Source of the DNA: Halobacteriales archaeon SW_8_68_21
Lineage (GTDB): Archaea > Halobacteriota > Halobacteria > Halobacteriales > Haloferacaceae
Direction of reading: 5' to 3'
NCBI GenBank assembly: GCA_003023405.1
Contig: PXST01000024.1
Span: 1-64,000 of the forward strand
Length of the DNA stretch: 64,000 bases
Shown here piece by piece: positions 206 to 39,154 of the stretch (positions are counted from its first letter, which is position 1; every line of letters begins with the position of its first letter). The translations under genes and the position numbers were made by a program. Under the pieces are notes generated by a model that saw nothing but the letters and a program-made list of their open reading frames with translations, ran no database searches and was not told the DNA's origin.

Positions 206-358
206 CCGACGTACTGCGGTGGTTTCACGCGCTTCTACCGCCGCCCGCGACGTACGACGAACCGGAAGTCACGCTTCTCGGCGCCGCTCGATTCAACTAA
301 TATCAGACAGGTATAACATCCAAATGACTAAGATGTTGGGATATCTCGGGTAGTGACA

Positions 359-937
359 ATGGGGGAGGTTGAGGGACAGCCGTCCAAGAAGTCGATCGAT
401 GTCGGACCCGACCGAGGACCGACGGTCGACGGAGCCGAGCGGACGCTGACAAAAAACGACGTGTTCGACATCCTCAAGAACGAACGGCGACGAGCAGTCG
501 TCCGGTACCTCCTCGAACACGACGGGTCCGCAGACCTCTCCGACATCGCCGAACACGTCGCCGCACGTGAGAACGACACCGACGTTCGACAGCTCTCCTC
601 GCAGGAGCGGAAGCGCGTTCGGATCGCTCTCTACCAGTGTCACCTCCCGCGGATGGACGCGGCCAGAGTGATCGAGTTCGACAAGGACCGCGGGGGTATC
701 GAGCTGCGAGATGCGGCCTCGCAGCTACAGGTATATCTGGACGTGGACGCCCAGAACGGCCGAAACCCCGGATCGTCAAGCCGGTTCGCGTTCGCGCTCG
801 CCGTCGGCGTTGCGGCGCTCGTCGTGCCGGGGACGTTGGGGTTCGGACCGCTTTCCGCGGTCTCCCCGGCGGGATGGGCGGCGGTGAGCTCCCTGACGCT
901 GGTGGCGATCGCCGGGCACCAGTGGCGGTTCAACTGA
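359..937 (+). CDS. DUF7344-type winged-helix regulator with two C-terminal membrane segments
   Basis: This 192-residue protein has an N-terminal winged-helix domain of the haloarchaeal DUF7344 type (LTKNDVFDILKNERRRAVVR, then the QLSSQERKRVRIALYQCHLP core). Two hydrophobic segments follow near the C-terminus (around residues 145-165 and 170-190). It is probably a membrane-tethered DNA-binding regulator. The ATG at 359 is preferred over the GTG two codons upstream. It closely resembles the protein at 12075-12716 in both the HTH core and the two-TM tail, so the two are likely paralogues. The DNA target and the signal sensed are unknown. Confidence 0.75.
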   Translation: MGEVEGQPSKKSIDVGPDRGPTVDGAERTLTKNDVFDILKNERRRAVVRYLLEHDGSADLSDIAEHVAARENDTDVRQLSSQERKRVRIALYQCHLPRMDAARVIEFDKDRGGIELRDAASQLQVYLDVDAQNGRNPGSSSRFAFALAVGVAALVVPGTLGFGPLSAVSPAGWAAVSSLTLVAIAGHQWRFN

Positions 938-1656: not shown

Positions 1657-4179
1657 TCAGTCGTCGGGGTCGTCCTCGTCGAAGACGGCGTCGAGAACCT
1701 TCCGCTCGGCCGTTCGAAGGTGCCGGTTGAACGTCGGTTGAGTGATCCCCATTGCCGCCGCGATCTCCTCGCCGGTGCTCGCCCGCGGCCACTCGAAATA
1801 CCCGCCGAAGTACGCCGTCTCGACGGCTTCGCGTTGCCGCTCGGTAAGCTCCGCCGAGAACTCGCCGCCGGCGTCGGATCGGTCGCCTCCGGTACGGTCC
1901 CGACGGGAGCGGAGCTCGACGTCACCGTACCGGTCCTCGAAGTGTTCGACGATCCGCCGCACGTCGATGGACCGTGGGAAGGTCGTCGTCATCGCGACAC
2001 CGTCGTCGCTGGCGACCAGCTGGTCGACGCTCCCACCGTGCGCGTTCACTCGGTCGGCCACCGTCTCGTCGCTCACCACCATCTCGAACCGACCGCTCCG
2101 GCCGCCGTCCGTCTCGCGAAGCGACTCGACGGCGACCACCGACGCCGCCACGTCAGAGGGGTCACCGTCGGTAGTGAAGTACACCAGCGACCGAGCGTTC
2201 TCCCGCGGGACGGTTCCGTCGACGTGAAGCGACTCCCCGAACGCGGACGCGACCCGGGAAAAGAGCGAGTTGCGTCCGTCGACGCGTAACTCGAGTTCGA
2301 CGAGTGACTCGGTCCGGAGCGACCGCCTCATCTCCAGGCTGCTGATCGCGTTCGCGACGTTGTCCCCAAGCTCAACGAGGAGGTCACCGAACTCGTCGTC
2401 AAAGACCGATCGACCGTCGGCGTACACCGATAGGACGCCGTAGCACAGGCCGTTATACGAGAGCGGAACGCTGAGGACGGAGCGGTGCCCGCACGCGAGG
2501 GCGCGCTCCCGCCATAGCTCCTGTCTGAGCCCGTCCGACACGTCGGCGACGCGGACCGGCTCGTCAGTCTCGACGGCCCTGACACCGGGAATCTCGGCGA
2601 TGTCGCCGGGACGCCCGCCGTCTCCGCGCCCCGGGGTCGGGGGTTCCGAGAGACGGAGCGAGTCGAGGTACCCGTCCGACCTGCCCGCCTGCGCGATCGG
2701 GGTCGGGTCGCCGCCGGTCCGGTACGTCTCGCCGAACCAGACGAACTCCACCTGCTCGGACTCGACGAGCGTGTCGCAGACGGCCCCGGCGATCTCGTCG
2801 AGGGTGTCGGCGTCGACCAGCTCCCCGTTGATCCGTCTGAGGAGACTGTTGAGGCTGTGAAGCCGCTCCAGTCGCCGCCGGTTCCGGGAGAGCTCGTTCT
2901 CGCGTTCGACGCTGTCGAGGGCCGCGACGGCGTTCGCGGCCAGCAGTCCGACCGGCTCCTCGACGTTCCCCGCCGGCTCCGCGGCGTCGAACTCGACGCG
3001 AACGAGCCCGTGTCCGTCGAGCGTCGCGTACAGGGTGCGAACGGACGGTTCGTCCGGGTCGTTCGACCGCTCGACCACGCGTCCCGTCGGGGCCGTCGTC
3101 TCCGGATCGGCCGCCGCGGCGCCGTCGATTCGGCGAAACGGCGTTCCGGACGCGTCGTCGACGTCGACCGTCCGAGCCGGATCGATCGTCGTCTCCGCGC
3201 CGGTGGTAAACGCCTCCCAGACCGGGGTTCCCGGTCCGCACTCGTCGTGTTCGCCGCCGGACGCGGCGACCGGGACCAACTTCGCGTCGGTCCGGTTGAA
3301 CGAGTAGGCGACGACCGTCGCTTCGGGCCAGACGGCGACCGTCACGTCGACGACGGTATCGAAGACCGACGCGGCGTCGTCGGCGCGGAGCAGCCGTCGT
3401 GCGGAGCGGCTCAGCTCGCGGAGGGCGCTCTCGTTGCGACGCCTGTCGGTCACGTCCCTGACGACGCCGACGCGGCCGCGTCGGCCGTCGTCGAACTCGA
3501 CCGGAGAGAAGTGAGTCTCGATCGGCAGCGACTCGCCGTCCACCGTCTGGATCGACGACTCGACCATCCCGACGTTGGAGCCGTCTCCGCGGAGCATGGC
3601 GAGGATCTCCTCGGCCTTCTCGAGTGTCTCGCTCCCCGCAAGCATCGACGCGTGCGACCCGACGAGCTCCTCGCGGTCGTACCCCGTCATCTCGGTGACC
3701 GCCTCGTTGACCGACGTGATCACGAACGCCTCGTTCAGCGTGTAGACGCCGTCCTCCAGCGTCTCAAGTATTCGGTTCGACCGACGGAGCTCGCGGCGCA
3801 GTTCGAGATCCTCGGTGGCGTCACGGACGAGCGCGGCGACGCCGTCGCTCCTCGGAACGACCCGGAATCGGAGCGTCGTCTCGTCGTCGAGGACGGCCCG
3901 CTCGTCGACGGTCTGGTCGGTCCGGGTGGCGGCCTCGATGGCGTCTACCAGCTCTGGACCGAAGCTCGGGTTGGTATCGCGCGGGTCGGCACCGACCAGA
4001 CTGCCGTCGGCGTCGAGCAGCTCCTCGGCCGTCGCGTTCGAGTCGACGACCTCCTGCGGGCCCTCCGCGTACAGGAAGCCGAGTTCGGCGCGTGCGAGGA
4101 ACTCCCCGACCGCCGCTCGGTGGTCGGGATCCGCCAGATCCATAGACTCTCTCACGGACACTTCTTCAGGTGACCCCAT
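1657..4179 (-). CDS. Bat-like regulator: PAS-PAS-GAF-HTH_10 (bacterio-opsin activator family)
   Basis: An 840-residue multidomain regulator. Two N-terminal PAS regions (about 10-115 and 130-250; the second contains the LEDGVYTLNEAF start and ends in VGVVRDVTDRRRNE) are followed by GAF-like sensor regions (about 265-400 and 430-590), a Bat-type linker domain and a C-terminal HTH_10 helix-turn-helix (about 775-830, LTERQREAVETAYFGGYFEW). Family members such as Bat in Halobacterium activate light- or oxygen-regulated genes for bacterio-opsin and retinal or carotenoid synthesis. The start at 4179 was chosen because a TATA box sits about 30 bases upstream. It is divergent from the terpene-synthase-like gene at 4439, so that gene is a natural regulatory candidate (inference). 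Confidence 0.85.
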   Translation of the reverse strand: MGSPEEVSVRESMDLADPDHRAAVGEFLARAELGFLYAEGPQEVVDSNATAEELLDADGSLVGADPRDTNPSFGPELVDAIEAATRTDQTVDERAVLDDETTLRFRVVPRSDGVAALVRDATEDLELRRELRRSNRILETLEDGVYTLNEAFVITSVNEAVTEMTGYDREELVGSHASMLAGSETLEKAEEILAMLRGDGSNVGMVESSIQTVDGESLPIETHFSPVEFDDGRRGRVGVVRDVTDRRRNESALRELSRSARRLLRADDAASVFDTVVDVTVAVWPEATVVAYSFNRTDAKLVPVAASGGEHDECGPGTPVWEAFTTGAETTIDPARTVDVDDASGTPFRRIDGAAAADPETTAPTGRVVERSNDPDEPSVRTLYATLDGHGLVRVEFDAAEPAGNVEEPVGLLAANAVAALDSVERENELSRNRRRLERLHSLNSLLRRINGELVDADTLDEIAGAVCDTLVESEQVEFVWFGETYRTGGDPTPIAQAGRSDGYLDSLRLSEPPTPGRGDGGRPGDIAEIPGVRAVETDEPVRVADVSDGLRQELWRERALACGHRSVLSVPLSYNGLCYGVLSVYADGRSVFDDEFGDLLVELGDNVANAISSLEMRRSLRTESLVELELRVDGRNSLFSRVASAFGESLHVDGTVPRENARSLVYFTTDGDPSDVAASVVAVESLRETDGGRSGRFEMVVSDETVADRVNAHGGSVDQLVASDDGVAMTTTFPRSIDVRRIVEHFEDRYGDVELRSRRDRTGGDRSDAGGEFSAELTERQREAVETAYFGGYFEWPRASTGEEIAAAMGITQPTFNRHLRTAERKVLDAVFDEDDPDD

Positions 4180-4203
4180 TAGACACGGGTATGAACGCCC
4201 AGA

Positions 4204-4213
4204 GACATATAAA
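4204..4213 (-). promoter_or_regulatory. TATA box of the Bat-like regulator
   Basis: On the minus strand the sequence reads atatttatat, about 25-30 bases before the ATG at 4179. This supports the shorter start (MGSPEEV) and a near-leaderless transcript. Confidence 0.55.
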
Positions 4214-4404
4214 TATCCCGTCACGTTCACGGAACACTATATTTCGAGTTGACAGTAGTTCGAGAAGGTCGATGAAACGTAATTTGAACTAACGAGTTAG
4301 TGATAGAATAGGGAGACACTCCGCGGATAGTCCTTTAGATATTATCAGAAATATCGTGATTGTCACCGTTTCGTACTTATTATCACGATCAAAGAATGGA
4401 ACAA

Positions 4405-4414: not shown

Positions 4415-4438
4415 TCTGTTATGCTGATGTTTATTCGT

Positions 4439-5449
4439 ATGTCACACGAGACTCGCGGACAGGTGACGGTCGACCGATGGGGAGGACCAGATCCGAGGGA
4501 GTACACTCGGCAAGTAAACGACGTTACACTTCCCCTAACCGCACGAGAGTTCGCGGATCGGTACGCCCGGGTCATCGGAGACCGAGATCGGTTCCTCTGG
4601 AAGTGGATCCACAACCTCTTCGATAAGTTCACGTTAACGTCGGTTCCGGATGGGGACCGGTCCGCCGTGTACGACCACAAGACGCTGTTGACGATGTTTG
4701 TGACGGTGCTCGACGACCTCGCGGAGAGCGATGCCGACCGGGGGACCTTCGACGCCGGCCGCTGGATTCCGTTCGGGGTCGACGCAACCGAACACACGGT
4801 GTTCGTGAGCGGCGACATCGACTACGACGTGCTCGAATACCTCGCAGATCTGTGGGACGCGATCGACGCGGGGATCAGGGACACGCCGCGGTACGCGGAG
4901 TTCGTCGATGTCCTCGAGTACGACCTCCGACAGACGTTCAACGCGATGGAGTACTCCGGACTCGTGAACGACAACCCAGCGATGGCCAACCGCACCGAGA
5001 CCGAGCGCCACGACGCGTACAACATGACGATGTTCCCCTACGCCGGGATCGATCTCATGTACTCGCCGTCGTTCGACCGGTCGGAGCTCGGAGCGCTCCG
5101 GAGCATCCTCTGTGACCTCCAGCAGATGGCACGAATCGGGAACTGGGTCACCACCTGGGAGCGCGAGCTTGGTGAGGGCGACATCAGCTCCGGCGTCGTC
5201 GTCTGCGCGCTCCGACGCGGCGTGATCGACTACGAGGAAGTCGCCGAGGCCGGGGAACCGGACGTCGAACGACTAGCCGATCGAATCCGGTCGCACGGCA
5301 TCGAGTCGGAGTTCACCCGTGAGTGGGAGCTTCGGGACCGGAACGTTCGAAAGCGAACCACGGAGATCGGGAGCGTCGACATCAAGCAGATCGTCGACGG
5401 CATCGAGACGGTGATGAACCACCACCTCGCCAGCGAGGGACACAAGTGA
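4439..5449 (+). CDS. Class I terpene synthase-like protein
   Basis: A 336-residue, mostly helical protein not closely matched to a named haloarchaeal enzyme. Numbering from the ATG at 4421, it has an aspartate-rich DDxxE motif (D98-D99-x-x-E102 in TVLDDLAES) and, 143 residues later, an NSE-type triad (N241, T245, E249 in IGNWVTTWERELGEGD). These are the two Mg-binding motifs of class I terpene synthases at the usual spacing. R196 lies 45 residues before N241, about where the pyrophosphate-sensing arginine is expected. Such enzymes ionise a prenyl diphosphate and cyclise or hydrolyse it. The gene is monocistronic and divergent from a Bat-like regulator. Motifs are seen directly; substrate and product are unknown. 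Confidence 0.6.
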   Translation: MSHETRGQVTVDRWGGPDPREYTRQVNDVTLPLTAREFADRYARVIGDRDRFLWKWIHNLFDKFTLTSVPDGDRSAVYDHKTLLTMFVTVLDDLAESDADRGTFDAGRWIPFGVDATEHTVFVSGDIDYDVLEYLADLWDAIDAGIRDTPRYAEFVDVLEYDLRQTFNAMEYSGLVNDNPAMANRTETERHDAYNMTMFPYAGIDLMYSPSFDRSELGALRSILCDLQQMARIGNWVTTWERELGEGDISSGVVVCALRRGVIDYEEVAEAGEPDVERLADRIRSHGIESEFTREWELRDRNVRKRTTEIGSVDIKQIVDGIETVMNHHLASEGHK

Positions 5450-5955: not shown

Positions 5956-6306
5956 TCAGCGACCGCTCCCCGCTCGCCAGTCGTCCGGAAGCTGCCCGCG
6001 GCCGTCGTCGAGGTGATCGATGAACGGCTCGATCTCGCCGAACGCCGGTCCCGCGGCGACGGTCTCCTCTTCGCGGTCCCACCGGACGACGCCGGAGTCC
6101 TCAAGTTTCGGCAGGTGATTGTGATTCAGCGACACCGCCAGCGACCGGGATATCGGACCGGGAACGGCCTCCTCGGCGGGGACGGGCCCTCCGTCGACCC
6201 CGCAATCGTGAATCGACAGCAACACCGCCCGTCGGTGTACGTTCGCGAGGAGCGTCAGGCACGCGTCGGTCGATAACGTCCCGTCGGTGTCCCGTGCGTC
6301 CCTCAT
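5956..6306 (-). CDS. DUF7344-type winged-helix protein
   Basis: A 116-residue protein consisting of one winged-helix domain. Helix one is ACLTLLANVHRRAVLLSIHD and the recognition segment is ISRSLAVSLNHNHLPKLEDS, followed by GVVRWDREEETV. This is the haloarchaeal DUF7344/ArsR-like pattern without a membrane tail. It is probably a soluble transcription factor. It converges on the small gene ending at 5924. No partner is evident. Confidence 0.75.
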   Translation of the reverse strand: MRDARDTDGTLSTDACLTLLANVHRRAVLLSIHDCGVDGGPVPAEEAVPGPISRSLAVSLNHNHLPKLEDSGVVRWDREEETVAAGPAFGEIEPFIDHLDDGRGQLPDDWRAGSGR

Positions 6307-6591
6307 CGGTGCTCTCCCCTTCGTCCGTCGGCCAACCCGGTCGAAGCCGTTTCGTCGGCGTGGACTCCCGGTATCGTCCGCGTTATTGTTCGGGAGATGT
6401 CACGAATCATATCCGTTATGACGGGAGTGCCGTTCATTAGTAACAGCCTCATACTCTGGCAAAACCGGATCGAGAACGGTGGTTGTGACTGCTTAACAAT
6501 ACCGCTGTTGCGCTTACGGTAGCAACCATGTGCGCGAAGCGTCCCGCGAGCGAGCGGAGAGACGGACTGCTGACCGCGACATCGGGCCGGA

Positions 6592-6598
6592 GGAGGTG
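6592..6598 (+). promoter_or_regulatory. Shine-Dalgarno site fixing the phnM start
   Basis: GGAGGTG six bases before GTG 6605. Clear Shine-Dalgarno sites are uncommon at first genes of haloarchaeal transcripts, which are mostly leaderless. This one therefore suggests a transcript with a real 5' leader, or translation as part of a longer message. Confidence 0.6.
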
Positions 6599-6604
6599 GA
6601 TGTC

Positions 6605-7783
6605 GTGACACAGCTCACCGTGATCAGAAACGGCCGGGTGGTCACGCCGACGGGCGTTATCGAGGGTGGACGCGTCGTCATGGCGGGCGAGCACATCGCC
6701 CGGGTCGATCGTGTCGAACGCGGCGCGGCGTACGGCGGGACGGTCGTCGACGCCGACGGGCGACTCGTCATGCCCGGGCTGGTCGACCTCCACGGAGACG
6801 ACATCGAGGGACAGTTCGAGCCACGGTCCGGGGCCGAGACGGACCCGACGACCGCGCTCGCCACGACCGATCGCGTGAACGTCCTCCACGGGGTGACGAC
6901 GAAGTTCCACGCCCTCGCGTTCGAAGAGGCACCCGACGACGGCCGGAGCATCGACAACGCCGCCCGTCTCGCTCGGGCCGTCGAGCGCGGGGCGGACACG
7001 CTCGGAGAGAACCGCGTCCACGCGCGCTGCGAGCTCGCCGACGCGAGCGCCGACGCGGTACAGGAGCTGATCGGAGCGGTCGATGTCGACCTCGTGTCGG
7101 TGATGCACCACGCCCCCGGAGACGGACAGTACGACGCCGAGTCGTTCGAGCGACACTACGTCGAGGACCGGAACTGGCCGGCCGAGGCCGTCCGGTCGGC
7201 CGCCGAGGAGCGGAGCGAGATGGACGATCGAAGCCGAAACCGACGGATCGAGCGGATCGCCGGCCTCGCCCGACGGGTCGATGTCCCGCTTGCTTCCCAC
7301 GACGATGAGTGCCGCGCCGACGTGGAGGCGATGGCGGGACACGGTGCTGCGATCAGCGAGTACCCGCTCACGCTCGACGCTGCGCGGTGCGCGACGGACC
7401 GCGGTCTCGCGACCGTGATGGGTGCCCCGAACCTCGTGCGCGGCGGGAGCCTGTGGGACAACCTCAGCGCTCGCGACGCGATCGAGGCGGGAGTCCTCGA
7501 CGCGCTCTGCTCGGATTATCACCCGGCGTCGCTGCTCGCGGCACCGTTCGTCGACACGGGAGAGCCGCTGTCGACGCGGGTCAACAGGGTCACGCGGAAC
7601 CCGGCCGAGATCGCGGGGCTCCCCAACCGGGGGCGGATCGAGGTTGGTGCCAAGGGAGACCTGATCGTCGTGGACCCGTCGCCGACCCCGACCGTCGAGC
7701 GAGTCTTCGTCGCGGGGTCGGAGGTGATCCGGACGGACGACGGGGAAATCCGAGAGGCTCGCTCTCGAGCGAAGGGGTCCTGA
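6605..7783 (+). CDS. phnM: PhnM-type amidohydrolase (alpha-D-ribose 1-methylphosphonate 5-triphosphate diphosphatase-like)
   Basis: A 392-residue metal-dependent amidohydrolase. It has the N-terminal metal-binding region (MPGLVDLHGDDIEGQFEPR), the LASHDDE and SEYPLTLDAA motifs, the PhnM-characteristic MGAPNLVRGGS segment, SDYHPASLL, and the C-terminal beta domain. In bacteria PhnM removes pyrophosphate from the ribose triphosphate intermediate of the C-P lyase pathway. The GTG at 6605 is preceded six bases away by a strong GGAGGTG ribosome-binding site (6592-6598), so longer frames were rejected. No other phn gene lies in this window; it may work with distant genes or on another phosphorylated substrate. 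Confidence 0.8.
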   Translation: MTQLTVIRNGRVVTPTGVIEGGRVVMAGEHIARVDRVERGAAYGGTVVDADGRLVMPGLVDLHGDDIEGQFEPRSGAETDPTTALATTDRVNVLHGVTTKFHALAFEEAPDDGRSIDNAARLARAVERGADTLGENRVHARCELADASADAVQELIGAVDVDLVSVMHHAPGDGQYDAESFERHYVEDRNWPAEAVRSAAEERSEMDDRSRNRRIERIAGLARRVDVPLASHDDECRADVEAMAGHGAAISEYPLTLDAARCATDRGLATVMGAPNLVRGGSLWDNLSARDAIEAGVLDALCSDYHPASLLAAPFVDTGEPLSTRVNRVTRNPAEIAGLPNRGRIEVGAKGDLIVVDPSPTPTVERVFVAGSEVIRTDDGEIREARSRAKGS

Positions 7784-8177
7784 CCGGGCGCGACAAGGAC
7801 GAGAGTCGGAACTAGTCATTCTCCTCGACGACGGACACACCGATGACCGTGACGCCCGTCGGACGGCTCCGCCGACACCGACCGTGCCGGCGGATCTGTC
7901 GTCCCCGAGAAACAGCTTGAGGGAGTACCGCAGCTGACGCGGGTGTCCGGGGTCAGGGACAGTCTACCTCAGCCACGGTACGAACTACGGATCACCGGTG
8001 CGGATAATTACTATACATGACATATTCGAGATATGCTCGAATTACCGGATAGATCGTGAAGAATACGGTTTGGTTTCTGAACGGCTGCCCTCGGCTCAAC
8101 CGATTCACGCGGTTCGATCCGGATCGATACCGTTTACTAATACAAACACATATGAAAGTTAACCTTCAGAGTACACG
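7784..8177. other. Intergenic region with a short palindrome
   Basis: No coding sequence was recognised in 394 bases. The half nearest the next gene is AT-rich. It contains a perfect 7-bp inverted repeat, attcgag/ctcgaat, at 8024-8030 and 8036-8042, and a TATA-like stretch (tttactaata) near 8133 in front of the HalOD1 gene. The palindrome could be an operator, but this is only inferred from shape and position. Confidence 0.4.
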
Positions 8178-8471
8178 ATGTCTGACCCACATCACCACCG
8201 CGCGCCCGCGAAGACTGACGAGACGATCGTCGAACGCGTTCCGAACGAGTCCGACACGTCGACGACGGTCTCCGTCGTCCGGGCAGTGGCCGAAGCCGAG
8301 TCCGTGTCTCCCGGCGAGCTGTCGGTGTTGGCCGACACCGTCGATCCCGAGTCGATAGACCAGCTCTTCGACGGGAACCCCGCTGCCGGACGATCCGGCG
8401 TGTCCCTCTCGTTCGACTACTGCGGCTACGCCGTACATGTCACCGACGAGTTCGTGACGCTCCGCCGGTAG
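8178..8471 (+). CDS. HalOD1-type output-domain protein
   Basis: A 97-residue protein with a disordered N-terminus and a HalOD1 domain from about residue 30: SVVRAVAEAESVSPGEL, ADTVDPESIDQLFDG, then the paired strands GVSLSFDYCGYAVHVTDE. It stands alone with its own AT-rich upstream region. The presumed role is signalling or regulation, as for other HalOD1 proteins; its partner is unknown. Confidence 0.8.
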   Translation: MSDPHHHRAPAKTDETIVERVPNESDTSTTVSVVRAVAEAESVSPGELSVLADTVDPESIDQLFDGNPAAGRSGVSLSFDYCGYAVHVTDEFVTLRR

Positions 8472-32635: not shown

Positions 32636-34249
32636 GTGTCTCGCCTTCCGAAATCCCTGCGCGCGCTGCTCTCATACGTCGAGCGCCTCCCGAACCCGTT
32701 CCGCGTGCTCATCCTCTACATCGGGTTTGCCCTCGCCCGGGTCGGCCTGATCGACCGCCACCGCGTGGTCCGGACCACGGACCTCGCGTGGCCGCGGATC
32801 GTCACGGGGATCGCGCGGATGTCAAAGAACGCGGTCGACGTGGCGATGGTCGGCGTCGCGGTCGGCACGGGCGCCGTCGCCGGCGTCGGGTTCGCGGGAC
32901 CCTACTGGGGACTCGCGTTCGCGTTCGGCGGCGGCGTCGCCGGCGGCACCATCGCTCTCGTCTCCCAGCGGTTCAGCGCCGAAGCGTTCGTCGAACTCGG
33001 CGACGCTGTCCGGTCGAGCGCCCTCCTTGCGGTTGCGATCACGGTCCCGGTCAGTGCGGCGTTCTGGGCGTACGCCCCGGCGTTCATCGACCTCCTGAGC
33101 AGCAACGAGCGGGCGATCGCCTACGGCGCGGACTACCTCCGGATGGTCGGACTCGGCGTGCCGTTCGCCGCGCTCAACCTCGTCGGCAGCCGCGTGCTGG
33201 TCGGCTGTGACGACGCCTACACCGCGATGCAGGTGCGGGCGGGCGGCGCGGTGGCGAACATCGTCCTCAGCGCGCTGTTCATCTTCGGCTTCGGCTGGGG
33301 CGTCGAGGGGGCCGCGATCGGCACCGTCCTCTCGAACGTCCTCGCAGTCGGGGGGTTCACCGTCGGTCTCGTCCGCGGCAGCGCCCCGCTGATCGGGGAG
33401 TTCCCGGTCGCGATCGACCCGACCGGCTCGTACGTGAACCCCGGAATGCTCCGCGACCTCGTCGAGATCGGGGTCCCCGTCGGCGCGCGCAACCTCGTGT
33501 GGACGGCCGCCGAGTTCCCCATGCTCTCCATCCTCGACGTGTTCGGCGAGAACACCGTCGCGGCGTTCGTCATCGCCCGCCGCATCTGGGGGATCATGAA
33601 CACGCCCGGGTAGGGTTTCGGTCTCGCCTCCTCCAGTCTCGTCGGTCAGGAACTCGGCGTCGAGCGACCCGACGAGGCGGAGGCGTACGCCCGCGACATC
33701 ATCCGCTTCTCGGCCGCGACGTACGCCGTCTCCGCGGTGCTCATCGCCGTCTTCGCGGCCGACATCGTCTCGCTTTTCGCCGAGTCGCCGGACAGCCCCG
33801 AGATACCGATCGCCGTGAACCTCGTGTACGCGGCCTGTGCCGCGGTGATATTCCGGGGCGTCTCGGGCGGTGCGGCCGGGCCGCTCGACGCCGCCGGCGA
33901 CACGAAGATCCCCTTCGCCAGCCAGTTCCTCGGGATGTTCTGCGTGTCGATCCCGCTCGCGTACGTCGGCGCGCACGACGCGACGCCGGCGATAACGGTT
34001 CCCGAAACCCTCGCGATCCCGGCGGTGGAGGTCCCGCTCGTCGGGGCGACCGTCGGGAGCGCGGAGGTCCCGTTCGTCGGATTCTCGATCCCGGAGGTCG
34101 CGCTCCCCGCGATCGGCCTGTGGGGGCTGTATCTCGCGTTCATGGCCGAGACGACGATCCCCGCCGCGATCAACTACCTGCGGTTCCGCTCGGGCAAGTG
34201 GAAGGAGATAAGCGAGGCGTACCGGCCCGAGGCGGCCGCAGACGACTGA
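32636..34249 (+). pseudogene. MATE-family efflux transporter with an in-frame TAG
   Basis: A 537-codon gene from GTG 32636 with MATE features (VDVAMVGVAVGTGAV, GADYLRMVGLGVPFAALNLV, GSRVLVGCDDAYTAM). A TAG at 33611-33613 cuts it after RRIWGIMNTPG. The same frame continues without shift as GFGLASSSLVGQELG and further membrane segments to 34249. The MATE family usually has Trp here (NTPGWGF), so one base change TGG to TAG explains the stop. MATE pumps expel drugs or metabolites using cation gradients. The long form would have about 12 helices. Confidence 0.85.
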
Positions 34250-34336
34250 ACCGTGACAATTAACTTGGGTTTTGATATCTACTTAAACCCAGCAGGAGTC
34301 ATCTGCTGAATACTAGCGATGTAGTCTCCATAGTAA

Positions 34337-35271
34337 CTACGTTACTCTCTCTTCGGTAGACTGGCGGAACTGCCGGAACACATTGACGGTGATACAATCG
34401 ATAAGACCGTAGATCGGTGCCCCAGTGGGGTTCAGTGACCGGAGGAAGCCATAGGTACAAGTGGGCTGCTCCAAGCCCTGTTTGGAGAGGCCGCGGAACT
34501 TCGCCAACCACGACTGGAGTAGCGACCAGAGACACTCTACCTGTTTCGTGTGGACGCCTTCGTCGGAGACATATTTATCGTCGTGAACGACGCACTGGTG
34601 GCCGTAGTACATACTTGATAGGCGGGAAGATCGTCAGTCCGGACCTCTCTCAGCTCTTGGGAAAGGTCGTCAGCTTCCTCAATTACTGGCTCAAGATTGT
34701 CCTCGTGGTCGCTGACTTCCTGTCCTGAAACCACGCGAAGCACGTCGCGGCACCCGCCGCGGTCGAGTCCCTCCCGCGGCGGATCTTGGCCTTTGAAACC
34801 CGAACATACTTGCTGTGTCCAATCGACCTGTGTTGGTCTTTCGACTGTCTGGGAGATGCGCTCCCAGGTAGTCGGGAAACCCCGGCAGAACGCGGTTTCA
34901 AACTCTCTGAGTTGGTCGTGAAGCGTCGTGTAACACGGTGAGAGGAGACCAGCGATCTGGGTGACGCTGAGCAGTGTATCAGCGTACAGAATGAAGGTGA
35001 TGAGGAACTCACCTAGAGTGAGTTCCGAATCGTAGAAAGACGTGCCTCGCGTGTACGTGGTCTTCAAATCACAACGGCCACACCAGATCCGGTTGGAGCC
35101 GTCGAGTGCGTGGAGGCTGTCAGCACCGCAGTTCGGACAAGATTGTGCTTCCCGGGCGGTCTTGAGACCCCGCTTGACGATGGTGTCGAGCGGCTCGGGC
35201 CGAAATTCTATTACGCCTAGTTCCGCAGGTTCCGCTAGCCTCTGGCCAAAGGCAAGATTGTTCTCATACAT
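34337..35271 (-). pseudogene. IS1595-type transposase, frameshifted
   Basis: Two overlapping frames make one transposase. The first (from 35271) has the N-terminal zinc ribbon (SCPNCGADSLHAL, IWCGRCDLKTTYTRGTSFY) and the central catalytic region. The second (34337-34612) has MYYGHQCVVHDDKYVSDEG and HTKQVECLWSLLQSWLAKF, the C-terminal motif of IS1595-family (ISH4-like) enzymes. The shift falls near 34616-34624 (DLPAYQ to YYGHQC). The stop codon at 34337 uses flanking bases beyond the element's end. Confidence 0.8.
34339..34346. repeat. Left target-site duplication of the IS1595-type element
   Basis: The bases acgttact are repeated exactly at 35333-35340 immediately outside the other end of the element. 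Confidence 0.8.
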
Positions 35272-35332
35272 ACCCGCTTCTATCCGGCTAGAGGCACTAA
35301 TACCTCTAGTTCCGCTAGTCTACTGAATAGCG
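34347..35332 (-). mobile_element. IS1595-family (ISH4-like) insertion sequence, 986 bp
   Basis: Ends were found by pairing imperfect terminal inverted repeats: about 21 of 25 positions match between the left end (ctctcttcggtagactggcg) and the reverse complement of the right end (cgctattcagtagactagcg). The element is flanked by an identical 8-base duplication, acgttact, at 34339-34346 and 35333-35340. Size, single transposase gene and 8-bp duplication fit IS1595. Its transposase is frameshifted, so it is probably dead unless mobilised in trans. Confidence 0.85.
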
Positions 35333-35340
35333 ACGTTACT
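35333..35340. repeat. Right target-site duplication of the IS1595-type element
   Basis: Exact copy of acgttact at 34339-34346. Undecayed flanks suggest a fairly recent insertion. Confidence 0.8.
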
Positions 35341-35506
35341 TTCTCAAGAACGGATTCTGAGTCACTCGATGAAACGGGCGTGTGTGGAACGTATGGACCC
35401 GATTCAAGCACTCAAAACAGAGTTAAATCTTATACAAGATATAATACATATTAACACTGATTCACCTCCAGCATCAACGGCTACCAGTAGTCAGGGACGT
35501 AATTTG

Positions 35507-35917
35507 CTAGTAAGGTTCTATTTCTATATCGTCCGGTATCTTCTCAAAATCTGAAATATTTTCTGTTACCAGAGCTTCGCCCGTATGAACTGCTGTAGCA
35601 CCGATGATTACATCTCCAAGTCCAATTCCCTCGTCATTATCGTCATCGCCTTGTTTCTGTATCTGTCCCTCATATTCACCAGCTGTCCTCATGATATCCG
35701 GAGTAGCCTCAATAAAATCATACCCGGTAAGAACTCTTTCACTCTTTTTTCTGTTCTTCTCTGTATGGTCTCCCTTACCAACACCAACATACAATTCTGA
35801 GATCACAACATAGGGTATCCGGATCTCCTCTTCCTTTGCTTCTAGAATAATCGATTTTTCAACTGCCTCTTTTTCCTGATCCTCTAGGGATATGAGGAAG
35901 CATGTATCTAATATCAT
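35507..35917 (-). CDS. PIN-domain (VapC-like) ribonuclease toxin
   Basis: A 136-residue PIN domain. Acidic catalytic residues are visible: Asp4 in MILDTCFLIS, Glu41 in VVISELYVG, Asp102 in GIGLGDVIIGATA, Asp123 in TENISDFEKI. VapC-type PIN proteins cut tRNA, rRNA or mRNA and are neutralised by a co-encoded antitoxin. Its start overlaps the stop of the acidic upstream gene by one base (TAATG). Codon use and base composition are AT-rich, unlike the rest of the window, indicating horizontal acquisition. Confidence 0.85.
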   Translation of the reverse strand: MILDTCFLISLEDQEKEAVEKSIILEAKEEEIRIPYVVISELYVGVGKGDHTEKNRKKSERVLTGYDFIEATPDIMRTAGEYEGQIQKQGDDDNDEGIGLGDVIIGATAVHTGEALVTENISDFEKIPDDIEIEPY

Positions 35918-36330
35918 TACCCTCCAAGAGATATCTCTTTATTTTTCCTAACATCTGTTTTCTTCATGGATTCAATTGAACGTTTACGTCTTTCTGCGGC
36001 CTCATCATCGGAATTCCCAGCAAGATCAAAAAGTTTGGACTCTTCAACATCGGAGTAGTCACCAGAGATGAGCTTCGCGGCGAGTTCAGCGAGAGCTCTA
36101 CCTCTGCTTTCCCCCTCCCCAGTCGCAGTTGTATCGCTGTCTCTGGCTCTATAGACTTCGCCTGATTCAGAGATCTCTACCTGTGAGTGGGGTTTAAATA
36201 CAGGTCTATCAATCGAGCTTTCGTCAACCTCCCAATCTGTGTCTTCATTACTTCCACTAAGCGAATTGGATTCGTTTTCTACGTCAAGATCGACATCAGC
36301 CTCGGTAGCGGGCTCATCTGTAAGGGGCAT
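35917..36330 (-). CDS. Acidic protein of PIN operon, probable antitoxin
   Basis: A 137-residue protein without a recognised domain. The N-terminal two thirds are strongly acidic and Ser-rich (likely disordered), then a helix (GRALAELAAKLISGDYSD) and a basic tail (ERRKRSIESMKKTDVRKNK). It is translationally coupled at both ends (TAATG with each neighbour). Position directly before a PIN gene and the acidic nature fit an antitoxin, but no standard DNA-binding antitoxin fold is evident, so the role is inferred. Confidence 0.6.
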   Translation of the reverse strand: MPLTDEPATEADVDLDVENESNSLSGSNEDTDWEVDESSIDRPVFKPHSQVEISESGEVYRARDSDTTATGEGESRGRALAELAAKLISGDYSDVEESKLFDLAGNSDDEAAERRKRSIESMKKTDVRKNKEISLGG

Positions 36331-36965
36331 TATTCTAAATGGGATTCTTTTATTTCTCGAAGCTGTTCTACTTGCTCTTCCAACGTCTCAATGTGATTGT
36401 ATGTAGCCTGGTCTATTAATTCTTGGTCAAAAGTCTCTATTGCCCCTATTTGCCTGTCCAAAAGTACCGACACCAACCGCATATGTGACTCCACACTTGC
36501 TGTAAGTGTGAATTCCTCGTTCTTTCCGTTTTCAAGTTCATGTCGGATTCCACTTGCTCCAGTCTTATTATCTAATGTATACTCAGTTGAGATATTTTTC
36601 CAGAATCGCTTTCCTTGGTTCTTTTTTAGGACTACACCGTGTACCTGTGACTGATATTTCGATGCGATGCCAGTTAAGAATCGAATCAACTCGTCGCTTG
36701 CCCCCATGTCTTGTAGGGTATTTATACTCCCAGAATCGTATGTGATAATAACACTAGCAAGCTGGTTCGCTAACTGGTTTGCGCTATCGGTGTCCGATTG
36801 GATCGAGAAAACATACTCCAACGCACGGATTACGATTGTTCTCGAAGGGTTCTTGTGTTCGATGAGATTATCACCCAGCGTTTGGTCTATTTCTTCACTG
36901 AGGCTGAGTATCAGCTCCTCATTTTCATAAATGAAACGGAGGTCTTCCGGATATACTTCGCTCAT
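36330..36965 (-). CDS. Unknown first protein of the PIN operon
   Basis: A 211-residue protein not recognised as a member of any family I know. It is mostly helical in appearance, with a Ser/Gln-rich middle (SANQLANQLASVIITYDSGS) and a C-terminal coiled coil (HIETLEEQVEQLREIKESH). It is AT-rich and begins the three-gene operon. A TATA box at 36991-37000 is about 28 bases before the ATG, indicating a leaderless transcript. It may be a third component of the toxin system, such as a sensor or chaperone; this is inferred from coupling only. Confidence 0.65.
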   Translation of the reverse strand: MSEVYPEDLRFIYENEELILSLSEEIDQTLGDNLIEHKNPSRTIVIRALEYVFSIQSDTDSANQLANQLASVIITYDSGSINTLQDMGASDELIRFLTGIASKYQSQVHGVVLKKNQGKRFWKNISTEYTLDNKTGASGIRHELENGKNEEFTLTASVESHMRLVSVLLDRQIGAIETFDQELIDQATYNHIETLEEQVEQLREIKESHLE

Positions 36966-36990
36966 GGTTCAGGTAAGACACCGTGTTCGC

Positions 36991-37000
36991 TTATAATTTC
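36991..37000 (-). promoter_or_regulatory. TATA box of the three-gene PIN operon
   Basis: On the minus strand the bases read gaaattataa, centred about 30 bases before the ATG at 36965, ideal for a leaderless transcript that carries all three genes. Confidence 0.55.
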
Positions 37001-37318
37001 GGCGTTAGTTGACTACGTCTCGTGATAGTATCCATGTAAATCCAGTCCAAACACTTGACACGGGAGTTCGACACAGGTAAAAATCGACTCTTAGGTCGTA
37101 ATATCAGGTTATTTAACAATCCTACTAATTGCGATCCATTCGCACCGGCTGCCAGCCAAAACCCGTGAGCGCAGGGGTGTTCCGGTCGTCAGTGGAGCAT
37201 TTCTCTGTATTGAGCAATTCGGACCAAATTGAGATGATTCCATGCGAGATGTACGCCCTATGTCTGGCACAGCTGACAGACTCGGCCACCGACTGAGTAC
37301 TTCAACGAACCCACGCAG
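37001..37318. other. Island edge, no gene recognised
   Basis: These 318 bases lie between the PIN operon and archaeosine synthase. Composition moves from AT-rich to mixed. Short open frames show no recognisable motif, and no tRNA gene was seen. The region may hold debris from integration of the 34.3-37.3 kb island. Confidence 0.35.
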
Positions 37319-39154
37319 TCATTTCTCGTCGACGTGGCGGACCTGAACGGCGACGCCGCGGGTCGACCCCGCCATCTCCGGGCCGGACATCTCGGCGCGA
37401 CCGACCGCGAACGCCCTCGGCCCCTCGATCACGACCTCGTCGCCGACGCGGATCCCGTCGTCCGCGTCGACGATGCCCGGCGCGAGCACGGAGCCGTGCG
37501 GGACGAACGCGTCGATCTCGACCCATTTGGTCGGCGCGTCGCTCTCCACCCAGCGGCGCGCGCCGGCAAGGGTGAAAGAGAGGGTGCCGTACGGCGGGAC
37601 CATCGTCGCCAGCTGTTCGCCCGGCTCGCCCTCGCGGCCGGCGTCCGGGTCGTCGCCCCACACCTGGAGCTTGGGGTAGCGGCCGGTGGTGCGGATGTCG
37701 GCCTCGCCGCCGTGGGTGTCGGTCCCGTCGTCGCCCGCGTTCAGTCCACCGAACAGGTCGTCGCCCGCGCCGTCGCCGAGCAGGTAGTCGGCGAGCGCCC
37801 GGACCGTGTTGTGTTCGCGCTCCCGCTTGCTGTACGCCGGTTCGCCCTGTAAGGCGGCGTTCAGTTCGCCGAGCGACTCGTCGGTCGTCGGGGGGTCGAC
37901 GCAGGTGTACTCGAAGGGGACGTCGATTTCGGGGTCGGCCTCCACGCGCTCGCAGATCTCGCGGTAGCCGTCCTCGGGGACGTGTGCGATCACGCGGGCG
38001 TAGTCGTTGCGCCGCAGGTACCGCCGGAGGACCTCCGCGACGAACCTGATCTCCGCCTCGCTCCAGTCGCCGGTGACGACCGTGTCGTAGTGTTGGGCTG
38101 GGTAGGTCGTCTCCAGCTCCTGCGGGACCACGCCGATCGGCGAGGTCATCGAGACGGTGTGGCCGCGCCACTTGATCGCGTCGTGGAACTGGCGGTGGCT
38201 CTGGGAGTCGCTGTACGGCTTCGTCGCCGAGCAGGGGACCAAGACGAGCGGCTGGTCGGAAAAGCGGTTCCGGTAGCGGCTCGTGACGCGGTCGGCGAAC
38301 CGCCGGATCTCGACGCGGTCGAGCGTCTCCGCCGACGCCGCGGTCACCTCGGCGTCGCGCATGAGCGGCGTGCGCTCCTCGACGTACCCCCACTGGTCGT
38401 CGAACTCGCGGAGGGCGGCCGTGAGCCACCCCTCGTGGCGGGCCTGTCCCTCGACGTAGTCTCGCAGGCGACCGCTCCGGATCCGCTCGCGGACGCGGCG
38501 GAGTTCGGCGCGGAGCGCGTTCACGTTGTGCTCGGCGCAGTCGGCACGGGTGAACTCGTCGCGGGATTTCGCGCAGGCTGGGCAGGCGCAGGGGAGTTCG
38601 TCGAGGTCTTCGAGGAAGTGTTCCGCGTCGACGGTGAGGTACATCCCCTGTGTCCCCTTCGTCCGGGCGAGCGTCGCGTCCACGAGGTCGACTCCCGCGT
38701 ACGCGAGGAGCGCGACGTTCCGCGGGGTCGCGACGCCCGAGAGACCGAACGCGGCGTCGGGCGGCAGCGCCGCTTTCGCCCGGACGACCGCGTCGCGGAA
38801 CGCCTCGCCGTGCCCGACGAACCCCTGCGCGTCCGAGAGGAGGTACGCGTCCGCGCCGAGGTCGCGGGCCCCGCGGCTGTCGACGACGGCCGCGATCGGG
38901 AACGCCGCGTCCGGGTGGGCGACCGCGAACGACTCGCGCACCTCGTCGCGCGTGCCGGCCGGAAACGACCGGTGCGGCAGCACCGTCAACGCGCTCTCGT
39001 CGCCGTCGGGCACCTCGCGGTTGCCGGCCCAGAGGCTCCCGGCGTCGTCGAGGATCGGGTCCGCGAGCGCCGGCGTGGTCACCGGGTCGGCGAGGCGGAC
39101 CTCGCCGAGGCGAGCCGCGCCGTCGCGCTCGTGGACCTCGAAGTGGTCGGTCAT
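37319..39154 (-). CDS. arcS: Archaeosine synthase (TgtA2/ArcS)
   Basis: A 611-residue TGT-like enzyme. The N-terminal TGT-fold part has FGLSGVATPRNVALLAYAGV and a Cys cluster (LPCACPACAKSRDEF). The middle ArcS-specific domain has VLVPCSATKPYSDSQSH. A C-terminal PUA domain reads VAPGIVDADDGIRVGDEVVI-like sequence. It changes the preQ0 base at position 15 of tRNA towards archaeosine. ATG 39154 is supported by the conserved N-terminus MTDHFEVHERDG. It is a core archaeal gene standing at the edge of the mobile island. Confidence 0.93.
   Translation of the reverse strand: MTDHFEVHERDGAARLGEVRLADPVTTPALADPILDDAGSLWAGNREVPDGDESALTVLPHRSFPAGTRDEVRESFAVAHPDAAFPIAAVVDSRGARDLGADAYLLSDAQGFVGHGEAFRDAVVRAKAALPPDAAFGLSGVATPRNVALLAYAGVDLVDATLARTKGTQGMYLTVDAEHFLEDLDELPCACPACAKSRDEFTRADCAEHNVNALRAELRRVRERIRSGRLRDYVEGQARHEGWLTAALREFDDQWGYVEERTPLMRDAEVTAASAETLDRVEIRRFADRVTSRYRNRFSDQPLVLVPCSATKPYSDSQSHRQFHDAIKWRGHTVSMTSPIGVVPQELETTYPAQHYDTVVTGDWSEAEIRFVAEVLRRYLRRNDYARVIAHVPEDGYREICERVEADPEIDVPFEYTCVDPPTTDESLGELNAALQGEPAYSKREREHNTVRALADYLLGDGAGDDLFGGLNAGDDGTDTHGGEADIRTTGRYPKLQVWGDDPDAGREGEPGEQLATMVPPYGTLSFTLAGARRWVESDAPTKWVEIDAFVPHGSVLAPGIVDADDGIRVGDEVVIEGPRAFAVGRAEMSGPEMAGSTRGVAVQVRHVDEK

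Follow-up and report, generated by a model that had tools for sequence, protein, structure and literature searches.

The DNA analysed here, a stretch of 64,000 nucleotides that is called the window throughout, lies in contig C24 of a haloarchaeal genome of 2.4 Mb that is about 80% complete. It carries two divergently oriented genes, one encoding a class I terpene synthase-like protein (positions 4439 to 5449, plus strand) and the other a PAS/PAS/GAF/BAT/HTH_10 regulator (positions 1657 to 4230, minus strand). The former was recognised from its open reading frame, a conserved start, its predicted fold, its metal motifs and its kinship to canonical terpene synthases, and the latter from its Pfam domains, its co-inheritance with the synthase and its position in a phylogenetic tree.

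The synthase reading frame can be opened at an ATG at 4421, which yields 342 residues and from which all residue numbers given below are counted, or at an ATG at 4439, which yields 336. The second of these is probably the initiation codon, because close homologues begin at ATGGCACAC, which aligns with Met7 of the longer reading, and this start is common to the aligned homologues in several Halorubrum and Halobellus genomes; the initial annotation, which had opened the gene at 4439, was probably correct in doing so. Most homologues of the regulator align only from its residue 40 onwards, and its true start thus probably lies downstream of the GTG at 4230, at an ATG near 4143.

Fold, metal motifs and kinship of the synthase

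An AlphaFold model of the synthase, built from a 24-row alignment, proved to be entirely helical (mean pLDDT 84.6, pTM 0.84). A Foldseek search of the PDB with that model returned class I terpene synthases as its best matches, with a probability of 1.00 and E-values down to 8e-5, and superposition on class I synthases using VIA-align 2 gave Z-scores of 20.0 to 21.8 and rmsd values of 3.0 to 4.1 over 260 to 291 residues, which is almost the full length of the protein. The matched structures include abietadiene, taxadiene, isoprene, biformene, 10-epi-cubebol and T-muurolol synthases, whose scores are mostly ties. The isoprenoid synthase alpha fold, which the initial annotation had expected a structure prediction and fold search to reveal, was found, and nothing in these comparisons speaks against it.

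Within that fold, the two metal motifs were located in the open reading frame precisely where they had originally been described. The first, a DDxxE motif with the sequence DDLAE at residues 98 to 102 (positions 4712 to 4726, plus strand), ends a helix spanning residues 77 to 102 in the model, and the second, an NxxxTxxRE motif of the NSE/DTE type with the sequence NWVTTWERE at residues 241 to 249 (positions 5141 to 5167, plus strand), begins 143 residues after D98 and lies on a helix spanning residues 220 to 251. Conservation was assessed across 59 homologues drawn from haloarchaea, methanogens and two bacteria: in the first motif D99 and an acidic residue (E or D) at 102 are present in every member and D98 in 56, and in the second T or S at 245 is invariant, with N241, a basic residue (R or K) at 248, and E249 each retained in 58. 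The aspartate, asparagine, threonine and glutamate positions upon which the initial proposal depended are therefore conserved. Four additional residues (W62, P156, D211 and W246) hardly vary, and a tryptophan directly after the asparagine of the second motif, where aspartate or glutamate is usual, is a signature of the family.

Two further elements of typical terpene synthases were sought in the same 59 homologues. No conserved arginine was found at residues 195 to 198, the place of the pyrophosphate sensor some 46 residues before the asparagine of the NSE motif. Arg196, which the initial annotation had placed 45 residues before that asparagine, is indeed present in the window protein, but its proposed role as a pyrophosphate sensor is unsupported, since arginine occupies the position in only 20 of the homologues and this part of the spacing argument is therefore incidental. 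The C-terminal RY pair is likewise absent, and most members end instead in a G-x-K sequence (residues 340 to 342; positions 5438 to 5446, plus strand) that an hhalign alignment placed where the canonical pair would lie, with G340 in 47 and K342 in 41 of the 59. The sensor arginine and the RY pair are accessory diphosphate-binding features, outside the metal core; the protein thus has the fold and the metal motifs of a class I terpene synthase and is devoid of two such accessory features.

By sequence, the family lies at the margin of Pfam. The window protein matches no terpene synthase model there, neither PF19086 nor PF03936, an NCBIfam search with the synthase produced only a chance hit, and searches of PDB sequences with the window protein, with its profile and with a methanogen member produced no match. 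The Pfam family PF19086 (Terpene_syn_C_2, which includes the bacterial and fungal type of enzyme such as aristolochene, epi-isozizaene, hydropyrene and T-muurolol synthases) is matched weakly by 16 of 24 aligned relatives, and its cut-off is passed by members in six haloarchaeal genomes, at the same places as the synthase family. When profiles were compared by hhalign, the family matched a set of 20 canonical Chloroflexota terpene synthases with a probability of 96% (E 3.8e-9) and with both metal motifs in register, as against 2.8% for haloarchaeal prenyl diphosphate synthases, 0.1% for Bat regulators and 0.0% for a reversed decoy. In trans-prenyl diphosphate synthases the two motifs, FARM and SARM, are each rich in aspartate and have the form DDxxD; assignment to that family (PF00348) was rejected because the second motif of the window protein is N-x3-T-x3-E and the profile match is only 2.8%.

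The synthase and the enzymes of PF19086 accordingly share the alpha fold over nearly its full length, a DDxxE/D motif at the end of a helix, an N-x3-T/S-x3-E motif about 140 residues later on another helix, and a basic residue directly before the last glutamate. The family differs from them in the tryptophan that follows the motif asparagine, in the loss of conservation at the sensor arginine and RY pair, in its C-terminal G-x-K, in the passing of the Pfam cut-off by some members only, and in forming a separate branch of the tree, where the split from canonical terpene synthases is well supported (100/99) although long branches meet there. It is a divergent, mainly archaeal clade of terpene synthase-like proteins, and the initial reading of the gene as class I terpene synthase-like is strongly supported by the fold, by motif conservation and by profile-profile comparison. 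Standard genome-annotation profiles are largely blind to the family; six copies of the synthase are carried on haloarchaeal plasmids, and all six are annotated as 'hypothetical protein'.

Co-inheritance of the synthase and the Bat-type regulator

The regulator was matched by Pfam to the BAT (PF15915, 9e-32) and HTH_10 (PF04967, 8e-19) models, with PAS and GAF domains also above their cut-offs, in agreement with its original description as a Bat-type neighbour. It shares these four kinds of domain with Bat, the bacterioopsin activator of Halobacterium salinarum, which together with Brz is described as inducing bop under anaerobic growth and light (PMC3184054). The window regulator differs from Bat in belonging to a co-inherited group that lies largely apart from the other sampled Bat-like paralogues, and in adjoining a terpene synthase; among the immediate neighbours examined for this group of regulators, none was recognisable as a gene for carotenoid or retinal.

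The association of the two genes, which had been noted from their adjacency in the window, was borne out more strongly than originally claimed. In the host genus the synthase is patchily distributed, being present in 10 of 52 genomes, and in each of those ten a close copy of the regulator (689 to 1869 bits) adjoins it; the synthase-free genomes of the genus yielded no such copy, and the best Bat-like protein among them scored 249 bits. A Bat-type neighbour is present at 16 of 23 related loci in addition to the window. In a tree of regulators, those adjacent to a synthase cluster together, requiring 2 label changes as compared to 13.5 in shuffles, with two long-branch paralogues among them. The Bat-type regulator is therefore a dedicated, co-inherited partner of the synthase.

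The regulator and synthase trees also largely agree, both recovering the groupings (window,(L024,L102)), (L026,(L027,L028,L029)), (L033,(L030,L031,L032)) and (L036,(L090,L091)). Two placements recur in both: Halobellus captivus (L028) is nested within Halorubrum, and Halobacteriaceae SHR40 (L033) joins Halorubrum CSM-61, lipolyticum and kocurii. They suggest that the two genes travel together.

The control region contains two copies of a dyad that are candidate operators. On the synthase side, CGTGATTGTCACC (positions 4355 to 4367) precedes a TATA-like element; on the regulator side, CGTCACGTTCACG (positions 4219 to 4231) has such an element beside it. When at most one arm mismatch was tolerated, CGTGA-N3-TCACG was the inverted repeat found most often in the 17 intergenic regions between synthase and regulator; it occurred in 8 of them, and none of 100 shuffled sets exceeded 5. 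Several of the regions come from close relatives, which favours sharing. Across the 2.4 Mb genome the dyad occurs at 18 sites, and with one mismatch it was observed 9 times in the window against an expectation of 6.5; so frequent a motif cannot define a regulon, and it is only the clustering between the two genes that is suggestive. Its possible role as a shared operator of both divergent promoters is a lead rather than a result.

Near the pair in the window, two DUF7344 proteins and one HalOD1 protein are encoded at 353 to 937 (plus strand), 5956 to 6306 (minus strand) and 8178 to 8471 (plus strand). Directly beyond the Bat-type regulator, many loci of Halorubrum and Halobellus carry a small gene of the HalOD1 kind, which may belong to the regulatory module.

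Distribution, other neighbourhoods and substrate supply

The synthase query found matches in 21 of 97 relatives, and the family profile detected members in 38 of the 392 genomes sampled across the phylum, among them methanogens. The three distant carriers that were checked all possess McrA, and are therefore methanogens or close kin. The only bacterial members found belong to a Candidatus Anammoxibacter and a Chloroflexaceae MAG; no further members were found among 201 Chloroflexota genomes, and a search of viral contigs found none. The Anammoxibacter genome carries both an archaeal-type member (L045), which adjoins a sensor kinase of 1554 residues, and a second protein (L121) over the PF19086 cut-off, which proved to be a separate, more ordinary terpene synthase and was set outside the archaeal-type family. 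In the Chloroflexaceae MAG (L046), the bacterial family member is followed directly by a cytochrome P450 gene (1148 to 2503, plus strand; PF00067, 7e-93); cytochromes P450 are common partners of terpene synthases.

The Bat-type regulator is one of several sensors found beside the family. A PAS histidine kinase adjoins the synthase in other branches, with a PAS-HATPase architecture in the Halogranum/Salinigranum type, PAS-PAS-HisKA_2 in the Methanosarcina type, and three PAS domains plus HisKA in the L086 branch, as well as in Anammoxibacter. A member of the PAS-sensor cluster occupied the position immediately next to the synthase at 33 of 58 loci, as against 6 of 221 genes three or four places away; the 58 loci are related and do not represent 58 independent events, but at least four of the arrangements differ. 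The Natrinema-like branch (L108 to L117) mostly has no adjacent sensor and instead carries a putative MBL-fold-like hydrolase, named from its sequence.

No tailoring enzyme or dedicated prenyl synthase was found adjoining the synthase in the window. Two PF00348 prenyl synthase genes are present in every Halorubrum-type genome sampled, with or without the terpene synthase and including that of the window; a dedicated extra prenyl synthase was accordingly rejected, and the synthase probably draws upon the ordinary prenyl pool.

A distant relative of 256 residues (L088, in genome G186; 7695 to 8465, minus strand), flanked by one gene for a radical-SAM-like and one for a methyltransferase-like protein, has eroded versions of both metal motifs (EQDLL and SSWLSSWSDS) and is possibly a repurposed terpene synthase fold.

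Proposed activity and its alternatives

In class I terpene synthases, three magnesium ions held by the two metal motifs ionise a prenyl diphosphate, and the resulting carbocation is folded and quenched. The reading to which a probability of roughly three in four is assigned is that the window encodes a metal-dependent enzyme of this class, with a likely cyclic product, together with a dedicated one-component sensor-regulator that acts through the dyads. In such a mechanism: (i) magnesium would be held by D98, D99 and E102 and by N241, T245 and E249, with R248 near the diphosphate; (ii) ionisation would act on an allylic prenyl diphosphate from the pool of the two housekeeping prenyl synthases, the probable substrate being farnesyl or geranylgeranyl diphosphate; (iii) the carbocation would be folded within the helical cavity, and the product released would be a terpene, either a hydrocarbon or an alcohol and most likely a cyclic one; and (iv) the PAS and GAF domains of the regulator would sense a cue and turn the synthase gene on or off, probably through the CGTGA-N3-TCACG dyads at both promoters.

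Cyclising and non-cyclising terpene synthases are not separable by fold and motifs, and isoprene synthase, with a Z-score of 21.6, is among the top structural matches. The enzyme might thus act on prenyl diphosphates as a class I lyase or hydrolase, forming no ring and releasing a simple acyclic product of the isoprene, linalool, nerolidol or geranyllinalool type; nothing specific speaks against this reading, which is considered unlikely on the general ground that most characterised microbial class I terpene synthases cyclise their substrates.

The missing sensor arginine and RY pair imply that diphosphate is handled differently than in typical cyclases, and the N-prenyltransferases DabA (6vkz; Z 20.5) and DsKabA (9m1w; Z 20.2), which share the terpene synthase fold, tie with the cyclases in structural score. 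These observations would accord with a prenyltransferase that ionises a prenyl diphosphate and transfers the prenyl moiety to a small acceptor molecule, a reading regarded as improbable: no PDB chain, and hence not DabA, is matched by sequence, the profile of the family resembles canonical cyclases and no DabA-like protein, and recurrent genes of an acceptor pathway were not found beside the synthase. A catalytically inactive protein that binds ligands in partnership with the adjoining PAS sensors would explain why sensors, and not biosynthetic enzymes, recur beside the family, and both motifs have been lost in the distant member L088, but the near-invariance of the metal ligands in 58 of 59 members implies selection for catalysis and makes that reading very improbable.

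Archaeal membranes are built from isoprenoids, and to our knowledge dedicated terpene synthases in archaea have barely been described. Literature searches on archaeal and haloarchaeal terpene synthases yielded gene-cluster predictions, without class I terpene synthase biochemistry, and one cited preprint (Samusevich et al., bioRxiv 2024.01.29.577750, cited in PMC12797696), which, as judged by its title, reports archaeal terpenoid biosynthesis discovered through structure-based prediction. The metal-dependent terpene synthase favoured here, together with its regulator, suggests that archaea make regulated terpenoids. A broader proposal is put forward tentatively and at clearly less than even odds: that these class I terpene synthases form a clade widespread in archaea, altered in the residues that handle diphosphate and coupled time and again to PAS sensors, and that they make an environmentally controlled terpenoid new to archaea. 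If true, the product might serve in signalling, or as a redox or light protectant. Because the family is present in cultured genera (Halorubrum, Halobellus, Halogeometricum and Halomarina), direct testing is feasible; the fixed pairing of sensor-regulator and synthase offers a handle on when the product is synthesised, and comparison of the kinase-linked and methanogen branches could reveal the uses to which archaea put terpenoids.

Elsewhere in the window, a gene at 6530 to 7783 (plus strand) encodes a PhnM-like alpha-D-ribose 1-methylphosphonate 5-triphosphate diphosphatase (NF011990; score 407 bits, cut-off 233); the first 14 kb of the window apparently hold no further phosphonate genes alongside it. 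The stretch from 34001 to 38000 has a GC content of 0.52 to 0.55, as compared to 0.61 to 0.75 elsewhere in the window, and is perhaps an integrated or recently acquired element.
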